From positions 1 to 44,878 of IMG/VR virus record IMGVR_UViG_3300023172_000052: a DNA stretch of 44,878 nucleotides; one strand, given 5' to 3'. A program made the translations under genes and the position numbers. The stretch comes from a virus. Shown in pieces: positions 5,815 through 44,100 of this stretch (position 1 is its first letter; every line of letters begins with the position of its first letter). Under the pieces are notes generated by a model. It was not told the DNA's origin and did no database searches. It was given only the letters and a program-made list of their open reading frames with translations.

Positions 5815-8800
5815 TCAAGCGAACGGAGTAGAATCGATGACGCGGGTTTCGCCATTGGCAACCCCGCCAGTGCTAAAGGTAAGGGTTTCTCCAGCAACGA
5901 AGAAACCAGTAACGCTATCAACTTGGATACCTTTAATACCACCAGCGAGGTTGAGGACATCGGTGATAGTACCAGTTGCACCAGAAACAGAACCAACGAA
6001 AGTATCACCAACTGTCAAACCAGTGTTAAGACCAGTATGACGAATTATGAGAGTTGTAGTAGTTTCAAGGTTGGACAGCATACTCTGGAGTTGCAGGAAT
6101 GCATTCTCCAAGAACGTCTGGGAAATCTTAACTTCCCCACCAGCAACAGCGAGATGATTGCTGTTGAAGGAAGCAACACCTCGGTTAGAAGCGGTTGCAA
6201 TCTCAGCATCAATCTCGATTTGGTTATTGACATCATTATAATTGATATCAATACCTTCACCTGCAACCAGAGCGTTACCAACGGCATCCTGAGCACGTTC
6301 TGCAGTGAAGTACTGATAGTTAACGTTCTCAGAGATGTCTGCGGTAGAAGCGCCTGTAGCAGACGTTACACGACCTTTGGCGTCTACGGTAACCTTAGTG
6401 TAAGTTCCTGCCGTTACACCGCTGTTTACCAGGGTGCTAGCGATTGTGACATTGCTACCACCATTAAAGGAAACGGAACCAGTGAGGTCACCAGACAAAG
6501 CAATGTTTCTTGCAGTCTGCAGAGTAGATGCTGTGGAAGCATTACCAGCCAAGTTACCAGTTACATCACCAGTCAGGTTTGCGGTGATAGTACCAGCAGA
6601 GAAGTTGCCAGAAGAATCTCTAGCAACCAGACGACCAACAACGTTAGCCGAAGTCGCGTCGGTGACAATCTGACGAGCATTTGCACCGTTATAGGAAGTA
6701 CCAGAAGCAAAGCTCAGGTGTGTTCCAACAGAAAGAGTGTTGCTTACTTGAGTTGCTGTTCCCGAGAGGTTTGCAGTAATTGTACCTGCTGCGAAGTTAC
6801 CGTTAACGTCACGTAGAACAACAGAGTTAGCAGCAGATGCGGTGTTGGTGTTGAGGGTAAAGGTTGTGTTTCCAGAGACACCATTGCCATTGGTAACAGT
6901 AAGACCTGTTCCCGAAACAGCAAATGTTCTCCTATCGTATGTTCCATTTCCAGTCCTTACGAGGTAACCTGTTTGTGTTGTTTGAGATGCCAGTGCAGTG
7001 ATGTCTGCATCATCAAACGTGGTGGTGATAGTTACGTTGCTACCACCATTGAAGTTGACATTACCATTAACAACGCCGTCAATAGCGATGTTGCGGGTTG
7101 TCTTCAGAGTATCTGCCGTAAGAGCATTACCCTGAATACCTGCACTTGCTCCAGTACCACCATTTACAGTGATAATATTTGCTGAGAAGTTACCGATAGC
7201 ATTACGATAAACGACTGTGTTACCTGTAGCACTTGCAGAGGTTGTCATACCATCCAGCAAGTCTGCGTTCAGGTTAGTAACCTTAGTTGTGGATGCAACA
7301 GTAAACGGAGCAGTACCAGTAGCAACGTTGCTAATAAGTTGTCCATCGACAGTGATTGTTCCATCAACATTCAAGTTGCTATCGATGTCAACCGAAGTGC
7401 CTGCACCAGTGACTTCCAGTTTGCCGACACGGAGGGTTGCATCAGTACCTGTGTAAACTTCGGCATTGTTGGTAGCACTCTCAAGCATGCGGTACTTACC
7501 GAGGTTGTTGTCCCAACCAAAGAAACCAAACTTGGCACCACCATCGTAGTAACGGAACTCAACACCACGGTCCTTGCCGTCATTAGAGCTGGGAGCAGTA
7601 TCACCACCCAGAGTAATGATGGGGTCATCAATGGTCATTACCGTCGAATTAACGGTAGTGGTAGTACCGTTGACCGTGAGGTTCTGGTTAATTACAACGT
7701 TGTTTTGGAATGTTGCATTACCATCAACATTCAGCGTATTGTTCAGTTCTGTATGACCGTCAACATCCAGAGTGGAGTTGAGAGTTGTAGCACCGTCAAC
7801 ATCTAATGTATTGTTGAAGGTTACACCACCATCAACATCAAGAGTACCATCGGTGTGGATGTTGCCAGTAGCACCATCGATGGTCATCTCAATGTTGCCA
7901 GCACCATCGATATATCTGTATGTGTTGTTGTTACGATAGTCAATGTTTGCTCTGAACGTAGAAGCGTTATCTACATCGAAAGTGGAACCATTGAAGTTAA
8001 CATTGTCATTTACTGTCAGACTACCTTGAATAAAGGTGGCACCAGTATTAGACCAGACGTTAAACTTATCAGTACCGTTATTGTCTTGTACTCTGAAATA
8101 GGAGTTAACATCATTAACGATGAGGTCTTGCTGGAACGTTGCGTCACCATCAACGTTGAGAGTGCTATTCAGTTCCGTGTGCTGATTAACAGTTAGAGTG
8201 TTATTGAGTGTTGTAGCATTGTATGCATACAACGTACCAGAAATGCTAGTGTTGCCGTTATCGTTATCAACAGAGAAACGAGTAATGTTGGTGCCATCTT
8301 TGATACTGAAGTATCGGTTCGCACCAACAAAGTTGACATTCCCATTTACGGTTTGGTCAGCATTGATTGTTACGTTAGCATCAAACTGGGAAGTATTATC
8401 GACTTCCAGGGTGCCGTAGATATAGGTGTTACCGTTGTCAGTATCAACTGTAAATCTGTTTGCTGCCGCTGCAGTACGAATGATAAACTCTTTGTTGTCT
8501 GCAGTGACAATCAGGTTGTCGGTAATCTCAGTTTCCAATTGAACATCGAGAGTACCTTCGATGACAGTGTTGCCAGTGTCAGTATCAACAGTGAACACCG
8601 CCGCAGCATCACCATCAAGAATAAGAAAATCTTCGTTTGCTGCCTGAATGACGAGAGAATCGAAAATAGTTACTTGACCCTCTATGTCCAAAGTGCTGTT
8701 AGCAAAAATTGCACCACCGATACCTACACCACCAGCAACAATCAGAGCACCTGAGGTATGAGTGTTGGAGACTGTAGTATCTGTCAGCTCAATACTACCT

Positions 8801-18421: not shown

Positions 18422-19954
18422 TTAGAACTCGATTACGATTTTAATATCTTCGATTTGGTCGTTTGCACGACTAATGGTCCGTCTATTATCTATGTAAATT
18501 ACGTTACCACTATTTCTCTCAACTTCAGGTTTTGCATAACCAGAGGTAAAACGCATACCCAAGTCATACTCAGTGTTGTTAATAACACGAGATGATGTAT
18601 TTGGGATAGCTGGGAAGTTAACGTCGGGTTCACCAGAAGCACCTGAACCAAGACCAGTGATGGAGTTGGAACCATCAAACTCGTTCAGAGAACCAGTTAC
18701 TTCAGGGAAAATTCCGTCAACACGGTTCTGATAATACTTGAGAACTTTTGTAGTGGAGTTCCAAGAAACAACTCTGCCTCTGGATGTGACAGATTGACCA
18801 CCAACAATACGAGTTTGCTGGAGAGTTTCGTCTGCAATAAAATTGCCTTGGAATGTGGGTGAGAAGATTGTTGCTTTAGTAGCAGATACGGTCAAATCAT
18901 CAAGAAGTTCTACAGTACCAAAGCGCAACGGGTTAACTACAAGTCCAACACGACGATAATCGTTATCGATGGGAAAATCGCCAGCACCCTCAGCATAAGA
19001 GAGTTTAGCGTTTACCATGACACGATATGCACCAAGTTCAATCAGGGGGTCTGCTCCGTGGCCACCTGGGGGAGGAATAACAACATCGATGACGGCACCT
19101 GTTCCAGTACCAACACCAGAGATGTTATCAACTGTAATCTTACCAAAGGTGTATCCAGTACCACCAGAGGTCACAGTTGCGGAGATAACTTTACCACCGT
19201 CAATAACAATAGAAACACGTCCACCAACACCGTCACCATTAATAGTAACGTTGTCATATGTACCGTTGTTATAACCAGAACCAGAGGAAGTAATTACAAC
19301 AGTATCAATCTCACCAGGAACTGCGTTTGTTTTAACCGAAAGGTCTTGAAACACAGGCATATAGTCACTGGAGAAAAACTTTAGAACCTGTGCCACTGGG
19401 ATGGTGTAGAGATACTTCCAACGATAACCATCAGCAGTAGAGATGATAGAAGTAGAAGTACCAGTTGGTTCGATAGTCGAGGGTTTTCCATTGGGGTCAG
19501 AAGGAGAAGTCCCGTTGTAAATACACTTATAAACTTGATAGTTCGAGTTTACAACATAGAAATCCGAATCATAAAGTTTGGTCGCACCAGAAGATGCAGT
19601 GTTAGTAGGAGAATAGTCATGACGATACATGTCATAAGTAAAACCCAATCCACCAGTAGTCTTCTCGGGGGGAGTCCAGTCAATACGACGAACAACCTGA
19701 ACCGTATCAGAGGAAAGGACACGCTTCATGGAAATCATGTCGTCATACGAGTCAGAAAACTCGAAGAACGAGTCCACTGCTTGCGGAGGCGAGTTTTCAT
19801 TATCCCACGCTTGAGGTCTACCAATAAACAGATACAATCTGTCTCTGGTGGAACCTGCCGCTGTATCACTTTGGTTTGGGTCGGGACCTTCCAAAGATTT
19901 AATGAATTTTTTCGCAGAAAAAATTCTAAATTGGTCCGTAAGAAGTGCTGACAT
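18422..19954 (-). CDS. 8: Baseplate wedge subunit gp8
   Basis: The product matches T4 gp8 along its length. Near the start it has LYLFIGRPQAWDNE (T4 has FITFGRSEPW), then VVRRIDW (T4 PRRDW), then DGYRWKYLYTIP (T4 DGYVWEYLFEIP). It ends in GNVIYIDNRRTISRANDQIE, equivalent to T4 GEMIYMENRPPIIMAMDQTE. In T4, gp8 is a wedge protein of the baseplate assembling with gp7, gp10 and gp6. At 510 residues it is longer than T4 gp8 (334). Much of the extra length is a glycine-rich beta insertion around residues 220-310 (SGSGYNNGTYDNV, GGTGYTFGKITV, VIPPPGGHGAD), related to modules in gp14 and the giant protein. An AGAGGAAA sequence lies about 20 nt before the ATG. The next gene begins 4 nt after the stop. 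The comparison with T4 is from memory. Confidence 0.9.
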   Translation of the reverse strand: MSALLTDQFRIFSAKKFIKSLEGPDPNQSDTAAGSTRDRLYLFIGRPQAWDNENSPPQAVDSFFEFSDSYDDMISMKRVLSSDTVQVVRRIDWTPPEKTTGGLGFTYDMYRHDYSPTNTASSGATKLYDSDFYVVNSNYQVYKCIYNGTSPSDPNGKPSTIEPTGTSTSIISTADGYRWKYLYTIPVAQVLKFFSSDYMPVFQDLSVKTNAVPGEIDTVVITSSGSGYNNGTYDNVTINGDGVGGRVSIVIDGGKVISATVTSGGTGYTFGKITVDNISGVGTGTGAVIDVVIPPPGGHGADPLIELGAYRVMVNAKLSYAEGAGDFPIDNDYRRVGLVVNPLRFGTVELLDDLTVSATKATIFSPTFQGNFIADETLQQTRIVGGQSVTSRGRVVSWNSTTKVLKYYQNRVDGIFPEVTGSLNEFDGSNSITGLGSGASGEPDVNFPAIPNTSSRVINNTEYDLGMRFTSGYAKPEVERNSGNVIYIDNRRTISRANDQIEDIKIVIEF

Positions 19955-19990: not shown

Positions 19991-22900
19991 TTAGTTGTCG
20001 TCACGTACCAAAACATCATATTCGATGGACTTGATTCTCCAGGAAGCAGCAGTACCAACCAAACGCTCCCCACCAAGGACAACTTCACCGACAGCGCCAG
20101 AGCCAGTTGTGTCTCCTGGGTCGTTGGTGAATGTTACTGTTGGGTGTAAAGTAGAACCAGTCAACTCTTTCTCATAACCATAACCACCAGCAGTAACAGT
20201 AATACTAGAAACTTGGTCTCCAGATGCAGTCATTGTTGCAGTTGCAGTTGCTTGAATATCTCCAGCATTCTCAATCACGACTGACGGAGCTGCTGTATAG
20301 TCAAGACCAGGACTTACAACACGTACTTCAACAATCGTGGAATTGTGTGAGAACGTATAGAAAATACCACCATCACCGATTAGTGCGTTACCAGTATCAT
20401 ATGGAATTGGGTTAATAACTGTAAGAATGTGATTATCAGCATCCCATTCTTCTACAGTTGCACGAACGAGCGATTGGTCTCCTTCAACGAGTTCTCCGAC
20501 TTGATAATTTTGCTGATTACTATTATTAAGGTCAAGTTGGATTTTAAGTCTGGCAACGTGCTCAGTACCACTGTACAAACCGCCTGCTGCAGCAATACCT
20601 GCATATCGGAAGGGGATAGAAGCGTCCTTAATTTGGTCACCAACTGCAAGTAGAGTCGTGTTTTGTCCACCTTGAGTTTCCTCCAAACCATAAAGTGAGT
20701 TGTACAGACCACCATCCAGAGAAATCTGGTTCTCGAAATCTGTACCTGTATTTACGAGGTCAGGAATACCATCTCCCTCACCATCATTTTCATCATCATC
20801 TTCTAATCGAACGTTCTCTAGAACACCGATTGGTTCTGTCAGAACAGGAATAGATACGCCAGAGTCACCTGCAAGGTAAATCAGGACGTGAGGTGGATAC
20901 GACTGGTTTGCCGAAGAGGGCAGACCCGCATCAAACGAAACAATATTTTCTTCAACTTCTGACCTACCAGCATCAATGAATGCAAGTTCGTCAACTTCAA
21001 AGACCAGGAACAATTCTCTAGTGTTTGGATTCCAGTCATATACTTTTGCAACTTTGTTGTTAGCGTTTTCAATTCTTCTGACAATTCTATCGCCAACGTT
21101 GAACTGATACTGAGAGATACCATCGGGAGTATTGTTAATAGTATCTAGAATAACTCTCTGGTCATATCTAAAGTTAGTACCTCGGGTACAATCAAGAAGC
21201 CTATTACCACTCTTAGAGGTATAACGAATTAACTCCCTGTTAACAAGAATAGTACCAGAACCAGGAAGTGCTGCTGTAGAGTTTAATATAACAGTTGGGT
21301 CGGTATCAGTTAGAGACCTAACCAATCCCATAAGGAAGAACTGAGAAGAGTTGAAAGAAACTCGGTTTCTTGTTACCCTCTTTACATTAACCAGTTTGGT
21401 GAAGATAATATTTGGAGGATTTGTATATCCAGAACCAGGGTCTTCAATATCAATACGTGTAATAACACCTTGGTCAATAACTGCTCTACCTTTAGCACCT
21501 TTACCGCCACCGCCTTGAATCAAGATATATGGTGCTTCCTGATAGAATTGTCCAGGGTTATCAATAACAATATTTGTTAAGATGCCAGTTGTGTCAATAG
21601 TAGCAACACCTTCGGCACCAACACCACCACCACCTTGGAAAATAAGTTTTGGTGAGGATGCATATTCTCTACCAGCAGAGGAAATTGACAAACCAGTGAC
21701 ACTTTGAGTTACTGGTACGAGTTGTGCTCCAGTACCACCGCCACCAAGTACCTTTACTTCAGCAGGACCGAAGTATCCGTCACCGCTGCTAACCATCTTA
21801 ACGTAAGAGATAGCACCGAGACTATTCAAAATAGCTTCTGCCTTAGCACCATCTGGAGTATCCTCATTGACAGTTGGGATTGGGTCTCCATATAGAGTGG
21901 GGTTACCAAAATATGTTTGACCAATACAATATGGATATTGTGGTGCGCCAGACCCATCAATAGTCAAGAAGTATGCATATGTTCCTGAGGGGAAGTCTGG
22001 AGTGATGCAGAAACGACCGTTATGTTGGTCCAGGTCACCAATGGTCTCGTCCCAAATATAGTCTTGAGTAAACGCACCCATTGGGTAGTTGTCAACGTTT
22101 ACTCTGTTACCTTTATTGATATGGTTGTGACACCAGTAGTACAATCTACTGGGAGCGTCTACAGGCACTTCAAACTTAACGTATCTATCGGATGCAGCTG
22201 CCATCCCATCAACATATTCAAGCATCGACACCATGGAACCATCCAACCAATAAGAAACACCCTTATTGTAGTGTCCGCCACCTTCATGGTCGCCATCATC
22301 TGTGGCAGAGAACATGACATGGTGTTGGCGAATCAGACTGCCTTCCAGACCATAGTCTTCGTTGGTTGGGTCATTCTGGTCAAAGATGTATGTACGTCCA
22401 CGCTCAAGGTTGATATACGGTTGTTCAACGCCATCAATGTAGAATACACCAGTTGCTTTACCTTCAGTATTATCAACACCAACAGTAACAATGAATGTTG
22501 TAGTTTGTGTAGTATCCCCACTAATCAGAGGACGATTACCATCAATCTCAACACCTTGCTTATGTCTATAGGAAGAGTGCATTCTCTTCCAAATGATTTG
22601 GTTGCCAGGACCAGAAAGTTGGTTGATATCATTATCTAATGTCAGACCACTATCAAGAGTATCACCACCATTTGGTTGGGTTGGGTTTGCATAACCATAT
22701 GGTCCATAGATGGGATAACCATCGTATGAAATACCAAGAATCTTAGAGTGACCGTCTGGGTGTCTTAGATGGTCTCCTTGGAACCCACTGTTCTGATAAT
22801 ATGGTCCAAGTTCAGAAACACTATCATCTTCCCTCCATGCTGGGAGGAATCTTGCATCATGATAGGTGTATAGACCCTCTGGTGTTACGTGACCACTATA

Positions 22901-23536
22901 TTGGTCTTTGTGGAGGAAATCAAACCTAGCAGCATCCAAATCAAACAGTGCTGGAGAATTTCCACCGCCATCAAGAATGGGTGATGAAATCGGTGTTCCA
23001 TTTGAGAGAATACCAATCTGTCCCTGAGAAATTTGTTCAAATACAACTGCGGGAACTTCTTTACCACCTCTATAATAGACATTATGATGATACGACTGCA
23101 CCAAAACAGGTGGCATGCCAGGATAACTTCCAATCGGTGCAGGGTCAGGAAGATTATTAGATTTGATTGTCAGAATCGGAGGATTCTGGAAAGAAAAACT
23201 TGTTAGTGAATATGAATTGCTAACTGCGATTTTGGAGATATCTATACTCGTATCAACCTTAGCACTATCTTGTAAAGGTGTAATTACAAGACGAAGAGGG
23301 TCATATCCTCTTCCAGACTCAAGAACTCTAACGTGAACAATCTTACCAGAGATGTCATTAATTACAGGCCAAAGAACTGCGGGCACAGTTGGAATCCCAC
23401 AGTTTTCAATCCTTAGAATAGGCGCTTGTGCAGACGTATATCCCGACCCACCATTTTCAACCACAACCTCGCTAATGCCGAAAGATTGATTGAAAACGGG
23501 TTTGAGAATAGCACCAGAGCCAGGAACAGTCGCCAT
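19991..23536 (-). CDS. Large virion protein with YHYH domain split by a nested cupredoxin-like domain
   Basis: The 1181-residue protein begins with a glycine-rich strand module (GGSGYTSAQAPILRI). A YHYH-type domain follows: GLYTYHDARF, PDGHSKILGISYDGYPIYG, and MHSSYR near residue 320. The same domain resumes only at about 485-560 (GAFTQDYIWD, DLDQHNGRF, TYAYFLTIDG). Between them, about 342-480, sits a cupredoxin-like insert with RQHHVMFSA and YYWCHNHINKGN. It has His, Cys and a second His but Lys where the Met ligand would be. Three GGGG-type modules follow (575-720), then a CTRG module (LLDCTRG), a WD-type module (VYDWNPNTRELFLV) and two more glycine-rich strands at the C-terminus. It lies just before gp8, so a baseplate-associated role is plausible. 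There is a 15 nt gap to the 398-residue gene and no clear Shine-Dalgarno. Confidence 0.8.
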   Translation of the reverse strand: MATVPGSGAILKPVFNQSFGISEVVVENGGSGYTSAQAPILRIENCGIPTVPAVLWPVINDISGKIVHVRVLESGRGYDPLRLVITPLQDSAKVDTSIDISKIAVSNSYSLTSFSFQNPPILTIKSNNLPDPAPIGSYPGMPPVLVQSYHHNVYYRGGKEVPAVVFEQISQGQIGILSNGTPISSPILDGGGNSPALFDLDAARFDFLHKDQYSGHVTPEGLYTYHDARFLPAWREDDSVSELGPYYQNSGFQGDHLRHPDGHSKILGISYDGYPIYGPYGYANPTQPNGGDTLDSGLTLDNDINQLSGPGNQIIWKRMHSSYRHKQGVEIDGNRPLISGDTTQTTTFIVTVGVDNTEGKATGVFYIDGVEQPYINLERGRTYIFDQNDPTNEDYGLEGSLIRQHHVMFSATDDGDHEGGGHYNKGVSYWLDGSMVSMLEYVDGMAAASDRYVKFEVPVDAPSRLYYWCHNHINKGNRVNVDNYPMGAFTQDYIWDETIGDLDQHNGRFCITPDFPSGTYAYFLTIDGSGAPQYPYCIGQTYFGNPTLYGDPIPTVNEDTPDGAKAEAILNSLGAISYVKMVSSGDGYFGPAEVKVLGGGGTGAQLVPVTQSVTGLSISSAGREYASSPKLIFQGGGGVGAEGVATIDTTGILTNIVIDNPGQFYQEAPYILIQGGGGKGAKGRAVIDQGVITRIDIEDPGSGYTNPPNIIFTKLVNVKRVTRNRVSFNSSQFFLMGLVRSLTDTDPTVILNSTAALPGSGTILVNRELIRYTSKSGNRLLDCTRGTNFRYDQRVILDTINNTPDGISQYQFNVGDRIVRRIENANNKVAKVYDWNPNTRELFLVFEVDELAFIDAGRSEVEENIVSFDAGLPSSANQSYPPHVLIYLAGDSGVSIPVLTEPIGVLENVRLEDDDENDGEGDGIPDLVNTGTDFENQISLDGGLYNSLYGLEETQGGQNTTLLAVGDQIKDASIPFRYAGIAAAGGLYSGTEHVARLKIQLDLNNSNQQNYQVGELVEGDQSLVRATVEEWDADNHILTVINPIPYDTGNALIGDGGIFYTFSHNSTIVEVRVVSPGLDYTAAPSVVIENAGDIQATATATMTASGDQVSSITVTAGGYGYEKELTGSTLHPTVTFTNDPGDTTGSGAVGEVVLGGERLVGTAASWRIKSIEYDVLVRDDN

Positions 23537-23551
23537 TTAACTATTACGCAA

Positions 23552-24748
23552 TTAGACTATGTTGATTGTGTTGCCCATCGAAGAGTGAATCGTACACTGA
23601 TAATACAGTGTAGAAGGAGCATCCATAGGAACAACAAATGTAGTAGTTCCTGTAGAAGAACCACTAACACCATCTGTATATGCCGTACCACCGTTAGACA
23701 CTCTGATTTGGAATGGGTGAGAAACACCAGTACCGTTAATAAAGTGGTAGGTAAATCCTCTATAAAGATAGAGAACAGGGTCTTGCACAGAACCTGTAAA
23801 ACCAGGACCAGAGAAGGTATATGCTGATGTACCAGCAGCTGCTAGTGCCCAAGTAAGAACAGGACCAGCATTGCCTACCCAGTCACTACCATTATGGTAC
23901 AGCATCGTACCAGAAGCAATCGGGTCAGGGAAGGATGTTTCATCAACATCACTCAAACCACCAAGAGTTGCTGACCCGATAGGTCCACTATACGTAATAG
24001 TTAATACTTTGTTTGCTACAGAAGTACTAATATAAGTACTACCTTGAATTGTTACTGTATCTTCTGATTGAGTTGCTGTTGCACTACCTGCATCAGAAGC
24101 AATTACAGAGAATCCATCTCCACCACCAGCACCACCACCAGTTTCAATAGCAGGTGCCCAAGCAGTACCAGACCACTTGAGAACGTTACCAATAGAAGGT
24201 GTTGCGGTAGATACGTTGGAGAGGCTTGAGAGTGGTTTCTCTTCGTCAATCAACTTAATCCAGTTACCACCATGGGCAAAGTAACCAGAAGCAGTTTCAT
24301 GGACGTGGGCAAACATACCGTGGTGGGTAGATGCCAGAGGAAGGTCAGATTCTGTAGCGTAAGCACCTTCCCACTTCAGGTTACCGTCTACACCGTCAAT
24401 ATAAACGTTGGATGAACCACCAGCATTAAAGAGGATGTCTCCACTACCCTCTGCTTCAATGATGATGTTTCTACTAGAAGACGATACAATCTTAAATCCG
24501 TTTGTGTCAAAATGCTCCAGCATCCTGGCAACGGAAAGTTCTCCAGGTTCATATCTGGATGCAGTCGCATTCCAAATCAGAGGTTCTCCATCTTGGGCAC
24601 CCTGAATATTGATTTGCGAGTTAGTACCATCACCGATGGAAGCATACAACTCGGTGAAGTTATCATTGATTTTAATTGCACCAGAGCGTAGGTTATCACC
24701 TGTTCCGTCGTTAGCAACAGAACCTACGCCAATCGCTTGTTTTGGCAT
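23552..24748 (-). CDS. Structural protein: gp9/gp10-like N-terminus and C-terminal cupredoxin-like domain
   Basis: The 398-residue protein starts with GSVANDGTGDNLRSGAIKIN, then FTELYASIGDG, closely resembling the T4 gp10 N-terminus. The middle has fibre-type repeats (LSNVSTATPSIGNVLKW, LSDVDETSFPDP). The last 90 residues look like a cupredoxin: SHPFQIRV, then YYQCTIHSSMGNTI. His344, Cys385, His388 and Met391 match the His-Cys-His-Met ligand set of type 1 copper sites, although C-x2-H-x2-M is tighter than the plastocyanin C-x2-H-x4-M. The similar C-x2-H motif in the 1181-residue protein has Lys instead of Met. There is no signal peptide and no free-standing plastocyanin gene, so a virion adhesin or stabilising domain is likelier than electron transport. 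A TAGAAGACA leader precedes the ATG. Copper binding is inferred. Confidence 0.8.
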   Translation of the reverse strand: MPKQAIGVGSVANDGTGDNLRSGAIKINDNFTELYASIGDGTNSQINIQGAQDGEPLIWNATASRYEPGELSVARMLEHFDTNGFKIVSSSSRNIIIEAEGSGDILFNAGGSSNVYIDGVDGNLKWEGAYATESDLPLASTHHGMFAHVHETASGYFAHGGNWIKLIDEEKPLSSLSNVSTATPSIGNVLKWSGTAWAPAIETGGGAGGGDGFSVIASDAGSATATQSEDTVTIQGSTYISTSVANKVLTITYSGPIGSATLGGLSDVDETSFPDPIASGTMLYHNGSDWVGNAGPVLTWALAAAGTSAYTFSGPGFTGSVQDPVLYLYRGFTYHFINGTGVSHPFQIRVSNGGTAYTDGVSGSSTGTTTFVVPMDAPSTLYYQCTIHSSMGNTINIV

Positions 24749-25241: not shown

Positions 25242-26108
25242 TCAACCGCCAAGAGCGGGTCTTTGCTCTCTTGTGAATGGACCAAAGATATATGGATAAA
25301 CTGGATTTGACTCAGCATCTTGTGATAAGAAATATGCATAAGTACCGTTCGGGTACTCGGGAGTCTTTTGATAACGACCATTGTGCTGGTCTAGGATACC
25401 CAACTCAGGAACATACTCATAATCCTGAATGAATGTTCCTGCAGGAAGTTGAGAATAGTCATAGATTCTACCTTCAAGAACTTCACTTCTCTTCCGATAT
25501 GAAGATGTCATTCTTACAATATCAGACAGTTGGTCATCTGGGTCTGAATATGAGAAGGGTCCATAAACAGGATATCCATCAAAACACCAACCTACAATTT
25601 TAGAGTGTCCATCGGGGTGTCTAAAATTGTCTCCGTTATAATGTGTAGCGGAAAAATATGAATTTGAATTGATAACTGCTTGACCCCAGCAATGATTTAG
25701 GAAATCTGAAGAGTGGTAGTGATATTCACCACTTGCTTCTGGGTGTCCCCCACATACATCAACACCATAATTGGTTTCGTTAAAAACCGCGTCCCAAACA
25801 AAACCTTCTGGTGGTTGAATCGCTCCTCCAGGGAGTGGTCCAGGACCAGCAGCGGGATTGAAAAGCACAACACCATTTAGTGCAATACCTTGAGGACCCA
25901 AAGTGGTTTCATCAGGGTTTGATGAGTTTTGCCCTCCTCTAAATGGAAACACAAAATTATGTGATTGTGCTACCACCACATTTGGATTACCAACGAAATC
26001 GTTGCTTCCTAGGGGCGTGCCATATCTAGCTGGGTCAGGGAGACCGTTAGAAGTAACAGTCATCTGACCCAGAATGTTGATTGTTGCAGATGTTTGTGAA
26101 ACTGCCAT
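25242..26108 (-). CDS. YHYH-domain virion protein
   Basis: This 288-residue protein is almost entirely one YHYH-type domain (Pfam family YHYH). The signature GEYHYHSSDF lies in the middle, followed by PDGHSKIVGWCFDGYPVYG, MTSSYR, then LDQHNGRYQKTPEYPNGTYA, and it ends at a PYIFGPFTREQR segment. It aligns throughout with the C-terminal 300 residues of the giant protein immediately upstream, so the two look like a tandem duplication. Unlike the giant copy it keeps both motif histidines. The biochemical role of YHYH domains is not known to me. The location among baseplate and fibre genes suggests a virion component. No signal peptide or membrane segment is visible. The gap to the giant gene is 22 nt. 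Confidence 0.85.
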   Translation of the reverse strand: MAVSQTSATINILGQMTVTSNGLPDPARYGTPLGSNDFVGNPNVVVAQSHNFVFPFRGGQNSSNPDETTLGPQGIALNGVVLFNPAAGPGPLPGGAIQPPEGFVWDAVFNETNYGVDVCGGHPEASGEYHYHSSDFLNHCWGQAVINSNSYFSATHYNGDNFRHPDGHSKIVGWCFDGYPVYGPFSYSDPDDQLSDIVRMTSSYRKRSEVLEGRIYDYSQLPAGTFIQDYEYVPELGILDQHNGRYQKTPEYPNGTYAYFLSQDAESNPVYPYIFGPFTREQRPALGG

Positions 26109-26135: not shown

Positions 26136-29100
26136 TGAAGCTACTGGACCAGATAGTAGTCGCGTCGAAGTTGGGAATGGTGTACGCGGTGACTTCAGGG
26201 GTCGGCGGCGTCTCGGGATTCTCAAGGTCATCAATAATCTGCGCGGTAAGAGGAATGACCTCAAGTTGCGAATCAGTGAATCCTTCTGCACGTTGCTGAC
26301 GTGTTGCGTTACCGATGATGTACGGGAAGATGGGGTTACCATCAGCATCAATTGTCATAAAGTATGCATAGGTGCCGTTGGGGAACTCAGGCGTGACAGA
26401 GAATCTTCCGTTGTGGATATCCAGGTCACCAAGTCCGTAGACGTACTCATAATCATTGATGAACGAACCAGGCGGCAAAGTGACGAAACTATGTGTCCGC
26501 CCGTAAGCCTCAGTAGCGAGAAGTCTGTACGAGGAGGTCATACGCTTGACACCACTGGTATTTTCTGCGCTAACGCGATATCCGAAAGGACCATAGATGG
26601 GATAACCATCAGATGCCCAACCGATAATCTTAGAGTGACCATCAGGATGACGATAGAAGTTGGACTTGAAGTTTGTGTCACTCAGGTAAGGGGTAGAGCG
26701 ATAGAAGTTTCTTGTCCAGCAGTTCATCAGGAAGGAACCAGAACGGTAGCTGTACTCGCCAGATTGCTGGTCGGGCACGCCGCCGCAGGCGTCAACGCCG
26801 TACTTGTCTTCATGGAAGACGCGGTTCCAGTAGAATCCTGTAGGTAGTTCCAGAGTTGTGGTTGGGAGAGTTGCCGAATCATCAAATGCAGTGCTGAGAA
26901 CGACACCGTTGATAGCAACACCGACAGGACCAATGCCCGTATGCATCGGGTTGGAAGTATTGCTTCCTGCGCGATAAGTGAAGGAATACTGTTCGTTCTG
27001 AGCGATAATTCCAAGACCAAGGTCGGGGAACTGTGAAGAACCCAGAGGAATGCCATTAAGCGCGGGAGCGGGTGTTCCAGCAGTATTAATCTCAAGCAGA
27101 GTTTGATTAGCGTTCAGGTCAGGGACAGTAGCAGAGTTGTCAACGCTGACGAAAGTTGTCTCGGGATTGAATCCAGAGATAACCGTGGGCGCGAGCACGC
27201 CCGCGAGCACGCCACCTTCGCTATCTAGAGTCTGAATACCATCTGCTGCAGCAGTGACATCGCCAGACTGTGGAGGATTATTTGCAGGAACTGCAGGAGC
27301 GATGATGTCTTCCTCCAGAACCTGAGCAGTACCCTCAGCAGGATATGAATTGATGTCGGGATATACATAACCCTCAGGAACTTCAGTGTCGGGATTTACG
27401 GATGCATAACCGTAGTTTGTACCGCCTTCCTTAACATCAATTCTCTGAACACCAACCAGTGCCTTGAGTTGTCCATCGAAACCACTTGTCGAGTCAACAC
27501 GGACGACGGGTCTGGTTGTGTAACCATCACCAGGCGAGGTAATTTGTGCGTCTGTAATACGTCCTCTGAGAATCTGAGCACTTGCTGCAGCATCCTTACC
27601 AAAGATAGAACCAAGGTAGTCGAAGGTAATGAGCGAGTTAGACGATTCAATGATAGCGATTTCTCTATCTTCAGTTTCACCCTCAATGTCGAGGAGGTCA
27701 CCAGCTTCCAGAGGAGGAACGACGGTCGCCGCCACAACGTCTGCGTCAGAACCAATGTAAGAGAATCCAACGAATGTAGAACCGAATCTAGGAATCTCCG
27801 AGAAGATGATTCTAGAACCAACCAGTTCAAAACCAATTCCAGGTTCCTGCAGAACGCCGTTGAGAGAGACAACGATGTTGTTTTCTGGACGAATAACGGT
27901 AGACTGTACACCTTCCGTCAGGGTCAGCGAGTAGAAGGAATCTTCAAACAGGAGGTTGAAGGAGGAGCGCAAGGAGTCAAACTCGAACGAGATGTCATTC
28001 AGGAAGCGCAGTTTGCCAACATAGTAACCCGTGAAGGAAGAACCAGACTCGGGTGCTTCGGTGAACTGGATTTCATCGGAGAATGCCGTGTAAGCATTAG
28101 ATGCACCAGGAGGTTGAAGAACACCATTGACGAAGGTGAGCAGGTGCCCTGCGGGGTCAGGGAAGTAGGGGTCGCCGTTGTTGGATGTAATCTTGAAGTT
28201 GGTCTGTGTACCGTCAAATCCAACAAAGAATCTCTTGACTCTACCCTCAACAGAAACCACATCAGTAATTGCTGCCTTATAGGAGTTAGGACCAACAATC
28301 GTGTCATACTTAGTAGCAGTGCCCTTGACATCAGTGATGTAAAGTCTTTCATACTGGATGAAATCTTTCTTACTGACGACTGTAGCAGCGAACTGCGAAG
28401 CGACGTTTGTAACGACGCTAACTGCACCTTGACCAACTGGGTTACCACCACCAACATAAGTAGCAACGATGTCACTTGATTGGAAAGCACCCTCAACCAT
28501 GGATACGTAAAGCGTATTTGTATCAGTATCCCACCCAGAAATAATACCTTCAACACCAGGCTGTGGGATGTTGTCGATAATCTTGTAAAGCGTACCACCA
28601 AGAACAAAGTTATCGCGTGTAACATTGTTGAATGTATCTTCGTAAGGAGTAACTGTAAGTGTTACATAACCCTGCGAGAGAATCTTGTCACTGAGAGAGA
28701 TGTCACCAGAACCATTATGCTTGTAAGCATCGATGTAGAAGGAAGACTTATCAGCGTAGATGACCGAGGTTTCTTCAAATGAACCCTGCAAACTATCAGT
28801 ATCAATCGTGAGTTTACCGCCAGTGTTATCAAGAACAGCAGCGTTGTTGTCATAGTATTGAGTGATGATACCAGTAGTTCCAGAATCATATCCCTTGAAT
28901 GCTTCAGAAGCACCGAAGGCACCGATTGGGCGGACCACGACCATTCTGTACTCAACAGAGTCAACAGTAGACTCTTCAGAGTTAGTCATGTCAATGAAAG
29001 TTCTGCCAGTAGTCCAAGCAACAGTTCCATTGTCAATGATATCCATGTACTTGTAGTTGCTATCTTCGTAAAGCGCGTAGATAGTACCTGTAGTATTGAC

Positions 29101-41100: not shown

Positions 41101-44100
41101 ATATCCACCAAGGATATAACGGTCTGTTGTCAGTTTTGTCAAAGACGTGATGTAATCACCACGAGAAATACCAGAAATACCAGCATACTCACGCTGCCAG
41201 TCGAGAGTTGCAAGAAGACCAGTGTTATTTTGGTTATACTTAGCAACGATGATGTCTGGATTATGTGCGGGGTTGATTCCACTGGGTTTTGTATGTCCTG
41301 CGACGATAACGGTGTTAGCGTCATCTTCATCGACATAAATTTCCGTCAATTCACAATAAGAATCTCCAGTAATATTGGGAGAGTTAGAACGGAGCGACTT
41401 TTCCCAAACTTTGATACCAGTAGAGTTGTACTTAGCAACAAAACCGTAGAAGTTACCAACAGCATCCTGAGTCTTACCTACAACATAGGTATCTTTGTTA
41501 GAAGTTGTGGTGACATTATGAATAACGGTCTCCTCACCAGTACCATTGATTGTGTTGAGGAAGTAGTCTGCCTTCTTAAAGATTTGGGGGTGAGATACCA
41601 GGATTCTGGGGTCAGTTGTGAATCCATTACCAGAATTGATAATATTAAATCCAACAACGTTACCAGTTGCAGTGTCTAGTTTGGGTTCAATAACTGCGTC
41701 TTGTCCAACGCCATCAATTTCAACAGTGATAGGTACTTCTGAGGTATAACCAGTACCAACTTGAGTAACATTCAGTTCTTCAATACCCTCAACAACAGAT
41801 ACCTTAAATTCTTTATTGGTATTTGCCTGAATTGGTGTATATTGAACATTGATGATGTCAGCAATCTTCAGGTCATGAGGGTCTGCACAAGTAATAACGC
41901 CATAAGGAACGTCATTAATCATTTCAAAGGTGTAAGAATCAATCGTCTTACCCTTAATTTCAGAAACTCTCGCAGAAATTCCATATCCATCAGTATCGGT
42001 ATCATCAAAGACCAGTACGTCATTTACCTGATAGGATTGACCAGGGTTTTCAATAATAAAACCGTCAACCTTAGCGTCTTCAAACTTAGTAGTCGTTTCT
42101 ACTTCAATATCGACTCTAGAATCAAATTTGACAGTCGGGAAGTAATCAAATACCTCAAGACGGTCCTCTTCTTCAAGTTGATTGACCGCAGCTGCCTCAG
42201 TGGTATCAATAATAGAGTCTCTGTTATCGTCTTCGGGTTCTAACTGAATAAAGTCACCATCTTCAAAGGTGATTGTGTCAGTTTCAGCGTTAGGAGTTCT
42301 TTCAACGTCAATATCAACATTCTCATAAGGGTCACGGAATCTAACAACACCACCAGGGATATTTTGCTGTACCGCAGTCTGCTGGAGGTTCCACTTATCA
42401 ACAACAGAGTTCCAAGAGGGACCAAGAACATAGGGGAAGACTGGATTGCCTGCTTCAGAAGCATCAATGGTAACGAAATAGCAATATCTGCCTGTTGGGA
42501 AATCAGGAGTCTTAGCAAAACGACCGTTGTACTGGTCAAGGTCACCAGAACCAAAGTTGTACTGATAATCTTCAACAAAAGAACCTTGTACATACTCGGT
42601 CAAAGAAGGACCATCAATACGAGCAGGGGTGGGATTTGTATCTGGATGATAAATTAGGTTTGTTTTTAATGCATAAGACGATGACATTCTCCTGATTGCA
42701 GAAGACTGGTCGGTTGGGTCATCATAACCATAAGGACCGTAAATAGGGTTACCATCAAATGCCCAACCAATAATTGGGGAGTGCTGAAGACCAACCTCTT
42801 GCTCTCTAATCAATCCGTTAGAGTCAAGAATCATATTGTCACCCAGAACGTATCTCAGACGCTGAGGGTTAGCAATGTGAGCATACTCACCACCATACTG
42901 GGTGTTATATCCTTCAAAAACAGCACCATATGCTTCGTCAAAGTCACTGTTTGCTTGGAGGTTATAAGTCCACTCAAATACTTGGGAATCGAACTCAGCG
43001 CCACTACCAACGGATGTCAGAGTAACAATTGTGGTGCCAGATTCGTATCCAATACCTTTGTTGAGGATTTCGATGCCAGTAACACGACCAGCATTCTCGC
43101 CATCGGTATCAATAATAGCACGAGCAACAGCACCAAAACCTTCGCCGTAAATAGCAACTTCAGGAGGAGTGGTGTATCCATTACCTGCAGCAACAATAGC
43201 AATGGAGATAATACGACCATTATTGACGATTGCTTGTGCAGCAGCACCAGTACCAGAGCTTAGAGTAATATTTGGTTTGCTAGTGTAAGAAGTACCACCA
43301 TCACTAACAACAATCTCCTTAATAGGTCCACGAACTTGTGCTCTACCTGTAGCACCAGAACCGCCACCACCAACAATCGTAATATCGGGTCTAGAGGTAA
43401 AACCTGTGCCACCAGAGTTCAGTAGAATTCTAGAAACAACACCTTTAGTTACAATAGCAGTTGCAGATGCTCCTTCGCCTCCGCCTCCAACGATAGAAAC
43501 AAGAGGTGAAGATGTATATCCAGAACCACCGTTCAGTACCTCAATTTCGGTTACAGAACCATTAACGATGACATATCCTTCTGCACCAGTACCACCACCA
43601 CCGCTGATGCTAAGAACTGGCGGAGAAGATGCATCATAACCTTCACCAGCATCAGTAATATTAACAGATGTCAGAGAACCATAGATTTTGGTCAGTTCAG
43701 ACTTGTATGACCAAATAGACACACCATTTGCCCAAGTACCGAGAGGACCAGGAGTAATGTTGTCTTTTGTAGAAATTGTTTCTGGGTTTCTGGGAAGTCT
43801 ATACAGTTTTCTCTGGTTTCCAGGAATCAGAGCAGTTTCATTGAACGGACCAACTTTATAGTTGGGAATACCAGATGCTGCGATGTAAACGTAGTCAGTA
43901 TTGAAGAACGTATTTTGGATGTTTGTGGTATAGTTACCAATAATTTTTTGAATGGACTCAGTGTCAGATTTACCACGGTTAAGGTCAACCGAAATCAAAA
44001 TATTACCTTGAGGAGTGGTAGATGCTGGTTGGGGAAGTTGATACTTGAAGATATAAGCATCTTCTCTAGATTGAACCAGGAATGTACCGTTGTACAGGTT

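Follow-up and report, generated by a model that had tools for sequence, protein, structure and literature searches.

A cupredoxin-like domain nested inside the YHYH domain of a baseplate wedge protein from a relative of marine T4-like cyanophages

The 1181-residue baseplate wedge protein encoded in IMG/VR virus record IMGVR_UViG_3300023172_000052 carries a cupredoxin-like domain nested inside its YHYH domain (PF14240). The stretch analysed, here called the window, comprises positions 1 to 44,878 of that record; feature coordinates are given in Table 1. Based on sequence comparison and structure modelling, we consider it moderately probable (about 0.6) that in this protein family, T4-GC399, the nested cupredoxin-like domain serves interactions at the outer baseplate and is stabilised by metal. 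In the clade of the window the site probably holds no ordinary blue copper, because the axial Met is replaced by Lys.

Identity and genomic context of the wedge protein

The 1181-residue protein matches PHROG 708 ('baseplate wedge subunit') with 1459.9 bits and is encoded between gp9-like and gp8-like genes, as is its counterpart T4-GC399 in S-SM1 and P-SSM4; profile match and gene position thus both place it in T4-GC399/PHROG 708. Gene order in the window runs from a giant protein of 6215 residues with YHYH domains through the 288-residue YHYH protein and a small gp9/10-like protein to the wedge cluster, in which the gp9-like connector, the 1181-residue protein and the gp8-like protein are followed, at the location of VrlC, by a 2385-residue DUF4815 protein. 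Since this order matches that of S-SM1 and P-SSM4, the window is, judging by its genes, a stretch from a relative of marine T4-like cyanophages. The closest named phage by the 1181-residue protein is S-SSM4 (49% identity over the protein length). In databases, members of the family are called 'hypothetical protein' or 'baseplate wedge subunit', and the metaG-MbCM1 copy is annotated as gp7. We rejected gp7 as a name for the 1181-residue protein: the P-SSM4 protein of that name is the giant one encoded upstream, and the counterpart is T4-GC399.

Table 1. Positions of the features discussed, in window coordinates
Feature	Positions	Strand	Basis
gp8-like baseplate wedge protein, downstream neighbour of the 1181-residue protein	18422-19954	minus	profile searches
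1181-residue baseplate wedge protein, T4-GC399/PHROG 708	19991-23536	minus	PHROG match and gene position
Second YHYH part, PF14240 profile 138-183	21956-22096	minus	Pfam profile search
Whole insert, residues 325-486 (162 residues)	22079-22564	minus	motif positions and split Pfam match
Predicted cupredoxin-like fold core, residues 342-483	22088-22513	minus	AF2 model residues 203-344; Foldseek and VIA matches
Lys475 codon (AAA), axial-Met position	22112-22114	minus	motif position
His472 codon, ligand position	22121-22123	minus	motif position
Cys469 codon, ligand position	22130-22132	minus	motif position
His406 codon, first ligand position (second His of HHVMFS by alignment)	22319-22321	minus	alignment
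First YHYH part, PF14240 profile 48-141	22595-22945	minus	Pfam profile search
398-residue gp9-like tail fibre connector (PHROG 677, T4_gp9_10_N)	23552-24748	minus	profile searches
C-terminal cupredoxin-like domain of the gp9-like connector, H..CTIHSSM	23555-23881	minus	motif scan, hhalign, ligand columns
288-residue YHYH paralogue, without insert, 3/3 conserved His	25242-26108	minus	PF14240 search; His count
C-terminal YHYH copy of the giant protein, without insert	26344-26988	minus	PF14240 search
N-terminal YHYH copy of the giant protein, without insert	42460-42927	minus	PF14240 search

The YHYH domain and its insert

Searching the window with PF14240 returned five segments, namely, three unbroken YHYH copies (25314-25955 in the 288-residue paralogue and the two copies of the giant protein) and two half-matches in the 1181-residue protein, the only one in which the match is split. 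This protein scores 82.5 bits against a Pfam cut-off of 25, with both halves above it, and is therefore a YHYH protein, but one that is split by the insert and has Thr in place of one conserved His. As an earlier note made from the letters had it, the YHYH domain stops after MHSSYR (residues 319-324, 22565-22582) and resumes at GAFTQDYIWD (487-496, 22049-22078) and DLDQHNGRF (501-509, 22010-22036). Between the SSYR/SSYA and GxFxxDY landmarks lie 162 residues in the 1181-residue protein, compared with 18 in the 288-residue paralogue, whose short linker had also been noted, and 28 and 18 in the two YHYH copies of the giant protein. The interval first proposed for the insert, 22050-22510, falls in the right place, but extends 29 bases into the resumed YHYH domain and misses 54 bases of upstream linker. 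The insert is present in five other IMG/VR contigs at 99-100% identity and in a sixth at 70%, which rules out an assembly slip as its source.

The parent domain on both sides, an insert that is modelled as folding independently and relatives that are uninterrupted together constitute a domain insertion. That the insertion point may be a surface loop of the YHYH fold is supported only indirectly: 13 YHYH proteins encoded on genome contigs differ in the length of this loop, as would be expected if it tolerates change.

All 13 of these proteins have three conserved His residues (one in GH or AH, two in YHYH); four of them (L088, L089, L090 and L092) look phage-like although their contigs are filed as cellular, so that not all 13 are independent cellular witnesses, and L091 was excluded as a near duplicate of L090. 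The 288-residue paralogue retains 3/3 of the conserved His, the 1181-residue protein 2/3 and the two copies in the giant protein 0/3. The 1181-residue protein retains the DGYPIYGP and GTYAYF regions. A motif scan found the YHYH motif in none of the 56 readable relatives. The domain has been described as a predicted zinc-dependent hydrolase, with zinc coordinated by an Asp and three His (PMC7824862). If that prediction is right, the baseplate copies are probably not enzymes. The L088-L092 YHYH proteins have Ig-like tails, are filed as Nonlabens, Euryarchaeota or Flavobacteriales and resemble a protein of phage P-RSM6; by this likeness, their contigs may be proviruses or wrongly binned viral contigs.

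Predicted fold of the insert

An AlphaFold2 model of the insert region, built with 22 aligned relatives, contains a separate β-domain at model residues 203-344 (protein residues 342-483), with mean confidence in ten-residue blocks mostly of 67-93 and at lowest 60. It has ten strands of at least three residues and one helix. Judged by its strands and by its Foldseek and VIA matches, the model is consistent with the Greek-key β-sandwich of 7-8 strands that defines cupredoxins. Foldseek found ten PDB matches at E ≤ 0.001, all of them cupredoxins or multicopper oxidases, headed by rusticyanin, pseudoazurin and plastocyanin; the single-domain cupredoxins at ranks 1-8 have TM-scores to the targets of only 0.44-0.56 and identities of 12-16%, and M98K amicyanin (PDB 3rym) stands at rank 44. 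Among 999 chains compared with VIA-align, the best Z-score, 8.1, was shared by rusticyanin (108 aligned residues, rmsd 3.3) and copper nitrite reductase (109 residues, rmsd 3.1), and auracyanin A gave 7.7; the tool warns that a Z of about 8 can reflect a common arrangement and is not decisive alone.

At the sequence level the insert matches no Pfam or NCBIfam model, and when four copies of the domain were compared with these libraries the sole copper-protein match was halocyanin (E = 0.024, with the gp9 copy). A PDB sequence search with the insert retrieved antibody chains only (E = 0.14 and above), and searches with the whole 1181-residue protein, the 288-residue paralogue and a profile of the module likewise yielded no solved relative. 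With a profile of ten copies, copper nitrite reductase was the best match in PDB sequences (E = 0.0068, with single-domain E-values of 24 and above). Fold and ligand motif agree with each other, because H406, C469 and H472 sit at fitting strand positions: H406 lies just before the strand at model residues 268-271, C469 ends strand 325-330 and H472 starts strand 333-343. Taken together, the model supports a cupredoxin-like β-sandwich as the fold class of the insert, and the domain insertion proposed in the earlier note stands on the insert's own confident fold, its cupredoxin matches and the split Pfam match.

It is very improbable that one continuous fold, or an assembly artefact, is mistaken here for a nested domain. 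The YHYH halves are modelled with pLDDT of only about 25, and neither their mutual contact nor the junction of the two domains, which structure prediction had been expected to reveal, is seen. Nevertheless, the insert folds on its own in the model and recurs in six other contigs. It is missing from three paralogues and from the YHYH proteins of the genome contigs, and related domains occur by themselves in structural proteins, tail-fibre-like ones among them.

Ligand positions

HHVMFS corresponds to residues 405-410 (22307-22324) and CHNHINKGN to residues 469-477 (22106-22132). The equatorial cupredoxin ligands His, Cys and His are all present and in order as H406, C469 and H472, at positions that are invariant in ligand-keeping relatives. 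The axial position, Met in typical cupredoxins and Gln or Leu in variants, is Lys475 in the window and in the related loci L001-L005 and L007, just as had been read from the window at first sight. We therefore classify this copy as cupredoxin-like and not as a type-1 copper protein. Across the 14,241 residues of 13 window proteins, the pattern C..H..[M/K/Q] occurs twice, in the insert of the 1181-residue protein and in the 398-residue connector; shuffled sequences contain it 0.05 times on average, and two or more occurrences were seen in 0.05% of 2000 shuffles.

CHNHINK is found in the window, in the five near-identical contigs and also in L007, whose insert shows 74.5% identity; all 4/4 distinct copies of this clade have H, C, H and Lys, the Lys being encoded by AAA or AAG. 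When five parts of the protein were compared between the window and L007, the insert was the best conserved (74.5% identity versus 60.3-67.9%) and had the lowest dN (0.22 versus 0.26-0.36 in the other four parts), only dN being used as synonymous change was saturated or undefined in three of the five parts, the insert included. Because two lineages share the Lys and the insert is well conserved, the residue is fixed in the window clade and is no sequencing slip.

The insert resembles cupredoxins such as rusticyanin, pseudoazurin, plastocyanin, auracyanin and amicyanin in its predicted fold, in the His before a mid-domain strand and in Cys-x2-His at the last hairpin. It differs from them in the axial Lys of the window clade, in being nested in another domain, in its occurrence in a phage baseplate protein and in matching no Pfam cupredoxin model. 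The ligand spacing of amicyanin is Cys-x2-His-x2, as in the insert. By analogy, the nearest counterpart of the Lys site of the window clade would be the engineered M98K amicyanin, which combines this spacing with Lys at the axial Met; unlike the insert, it is a single-domain protein, and its Lys is engineered whereas that of the insert is natural and common to two lineages. The M98K change reportedly turns amicyanin into a zinc binder.

Related domains in the gp9 connector and other virion proteins

The C-terminal domain of the gp9-like connector, encoded next to the 1181-residue protein, is also cupredoxin-like, and in gp9 C-terminal domains H, C, H and M are all kept in 37/37 distinct copies. 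A 2538-residue fibre-like structural protein of P-RSM6 contains a further domain of this type, in which Gln takes the place of the Met, and related domains occur in several other metagenomic structural proteins and in predicted viral structures named tail-fibre-like or connector. The best single match of the window clade's domain is a stretch of the same P-RSM6 protein (47%). We make no claim that the window-clade domain arose by exchange with a tail-fibre protein: in a tree of 51 domains, for which every third second-site, long first-site and gp9 copy was taken, the deep forks are open, and 16/48 inner branches are starred.

Two alternative nested sites in relatives

The insert had been taken as a feature of this one protein, but it turned out to be part of a family-wide architecture, in which most relatives have a second nested site. 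We classified 68 relatives bearing the module, 62 IMG/VR loci and 6 named GC399 proteins; both YHYH landmarks are readable in 63/68 (52 distinct proteins), with L047, L053, L055, L057 and L062 left out as partial or too distant. In 48/63 loci, a second cupredoxin-like insert lies upstream in another YHYH loop and carries the C..H motif, which is absent from the first insert. This second insert has H-C-H-M in 47/48 loci (including the N-terminally cut L109, counted by its motif against the length label of the script), whereas L048 has Tyr for Met. The other 15/63 loci have no second insert (although L011 is cut upstream and may have one) and keep the motif in the first, as H-C-H-M in nine, with a His of S-ShM2 that the script missed being seen in the motif check, and as H-C-H-K in six. 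Ligand motifs in both sites, or in neither, are found in 0/63 loci. Because the 63 loci are related sequences, mostly from one search and with some phages represented twice, this either-or pattern may reflect one or two events. Locus L014 exemplifies the long type, with full ligands in the second insert (7024-7392) and the motif lost from the first.

Counted over distinct copies, second-site domains have the ligands in 31/31 (His), 31/31 (Cys), 31/31 (second His) and 30/31 (Met) cases, and short-type first-site domains in 5/5 at all four columns. When ten copies chosen for their diversity were aligned, no column was invariant apart from those of the two His, the Cys and a Tyr, and that of the Met was nearly so. 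Using hhalign, the insert, second-site, gp9 and fibre copies were linked at 74-99.9%, compared with at most 3.6% against three control stretches; one control pair, an N-terminal and a C-terminal stretch of the same protein, reached 77%, but these look like internal repeats and involve none of the cupredoxin-like domains. When the window and 69 loci were scanned for the motif, 54 sources gave two matches, 9 gave one and 7 gave none, several of the last being cut contigs or excerpts. Long-type first-site domains have lost the ligands and keep the predicted cupredoxin-like fold (VIA Z = 7.9 with auracyanin), which suggests that metal is not needed for that fold. For the second site, the fold is indicated by hhalign similarity and a model of middling AlphaFold2 confidence, in a stretch barely covered in the VIA list; another part of this second model matches the T4 baseplate chain 5iv5_BJ (VIA Z = 7.7).

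GC399 of P-RSM6 (614 residues, L069 5639-7483) and S-CREM1 (L108 3001-5109), both outside the 68, have neither the YHYH nor the cupredoxin part, so the module as a whole is dispensable in GC399. Directly upstream of the module-less S-CREM1 gene lies a gene annotated as a peptidase, subtilisin-like by sequence (L108 1317-2996). In Syn33, GC399 (L111 1992-7154) has 1721 residues, and further nesting is likely since about 520 of them separate the two YHYH landmarks. Syn1, S-RSM4 and S-TIM54 stand outside the comparison, as the stretches taken from them hold no GC399.

These distributions bear on the possibility, which we take seriously without favouring it, that the nested domain is a metal-free structural decoration, the cupredoxin fold serving as a β-sandwich spacer or contact surface and Lys475 marking a lost site. 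The long-type first-site domains, which lost the motif and not the fold, would fit this explanation, as would the replacement of the axial ligand by Lys and the C..H..Y of L048. Against it, His, Cys and His are kept alongside Lys in both lineages of the window clade, whereas long-type first sites lost the whole motif; C..H is kept in one nested site at 63/63 readable loci, and the gp9 copies are invariant at the ligands.

Discussion

We prefer the explanation in which the nested domain is a metal-stabilised interaction module. According to this scenario, the YHYH domain of GC399 would act as a scaffold, with a cupredoxin-type β-sandwich set in a loop of variable length. Relatives retain the full type-1-copper pattern (His ... 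Cys-x2-His-x2-Met) in one of two nested positions and never in both, and the domain would sit at the baseplate rim beside a gp9-like connector with its own copy. The change of axial Met to Lys in the window clade may then signify zinc, a differently coordinated metal or a step towards a metal-free fold. In T4, the long tail fibre is described as attaching to the C-terminal domain of gp9 (PMC3004832). Because the corresponding end is cupredoxin-like here and GC399 is encoded adjacently, contact of GC399 with gp9 or the fibres is, by analogy, a reasonable guess.

A bolder version, in our view rather doubtful, is that common marine T4-like cyanophages have baseplates with two sets of cupredoxin metal sites, in gp9 and GC399, that GC399 needs one working site in either of two YHYH loops, that the metal works in host contact or in triggering of the baseplate, and that in the window clade a natural Met to Lys change re-tuned the nested site from copper to another metal. 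We likewise regard it as unlikely that the domains are functional metal cargo, with copper or zinc on the baseplate and connector serving host contact in the manner of a 'Trojan horse' or redox triggering of the baseplate. The ligands are invariant in two wedge proteins encoded side by side, and the T4 fibre attaches at the gp9 end; both facts point in this direction, as does a precedent of iron in phage tails: the HxH iron-binding tail proteins of the 'Trojan horse' proposal likewise have proposed metal ligands in a marine phage tail (PMC11705849), but they differ in metal and motif, and no relation by descent is claimed. For such cargo, the metal, a redox partner and a receptor would all have to be supposed, and the nested copy of the window clade has lost its Met ligand. 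The scarcity of free copper in the cytoplasm, the place of virion protein synthesis, also counts against cargo.

Like T4-GC399 of cultured cyanomyoviruses, the window protein lies in the order gp9 - GC399 - gp8 and has the same first nested site; most relatives hold the ligands in a second nested site, while the window clade has Lys for Met. The fold itself is old, and databases already list the gene family, but we found no description of a cupredoxin in a phage baseplate in the open-licence literature searched, and among the titles seen on phages and cupredoxins none concerned virion proteins. The intact pattern in relatives suggests that the tails of common ocean viruses contain a metal site not described in that literature.

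If the ligand-keeping copies do bind metal, the infection apparatus of common marine tailed viruses includes domains of copper or zinc proteins, and one such domain would form the extreme end of gp9, to which the long tail fibres are joined in T4. This would bear on how fibres are held and released, on effects of trace metals on adsorption and on the metal load of virus particles. The finding is of middling interest as it stands and would be of high interest if the metal is real. The either-or pattern of the nested sites amounts to a natural experiment on the purpose of the site, and cultured phages of both types (S-SM1 and S-SSM4) make it testable.
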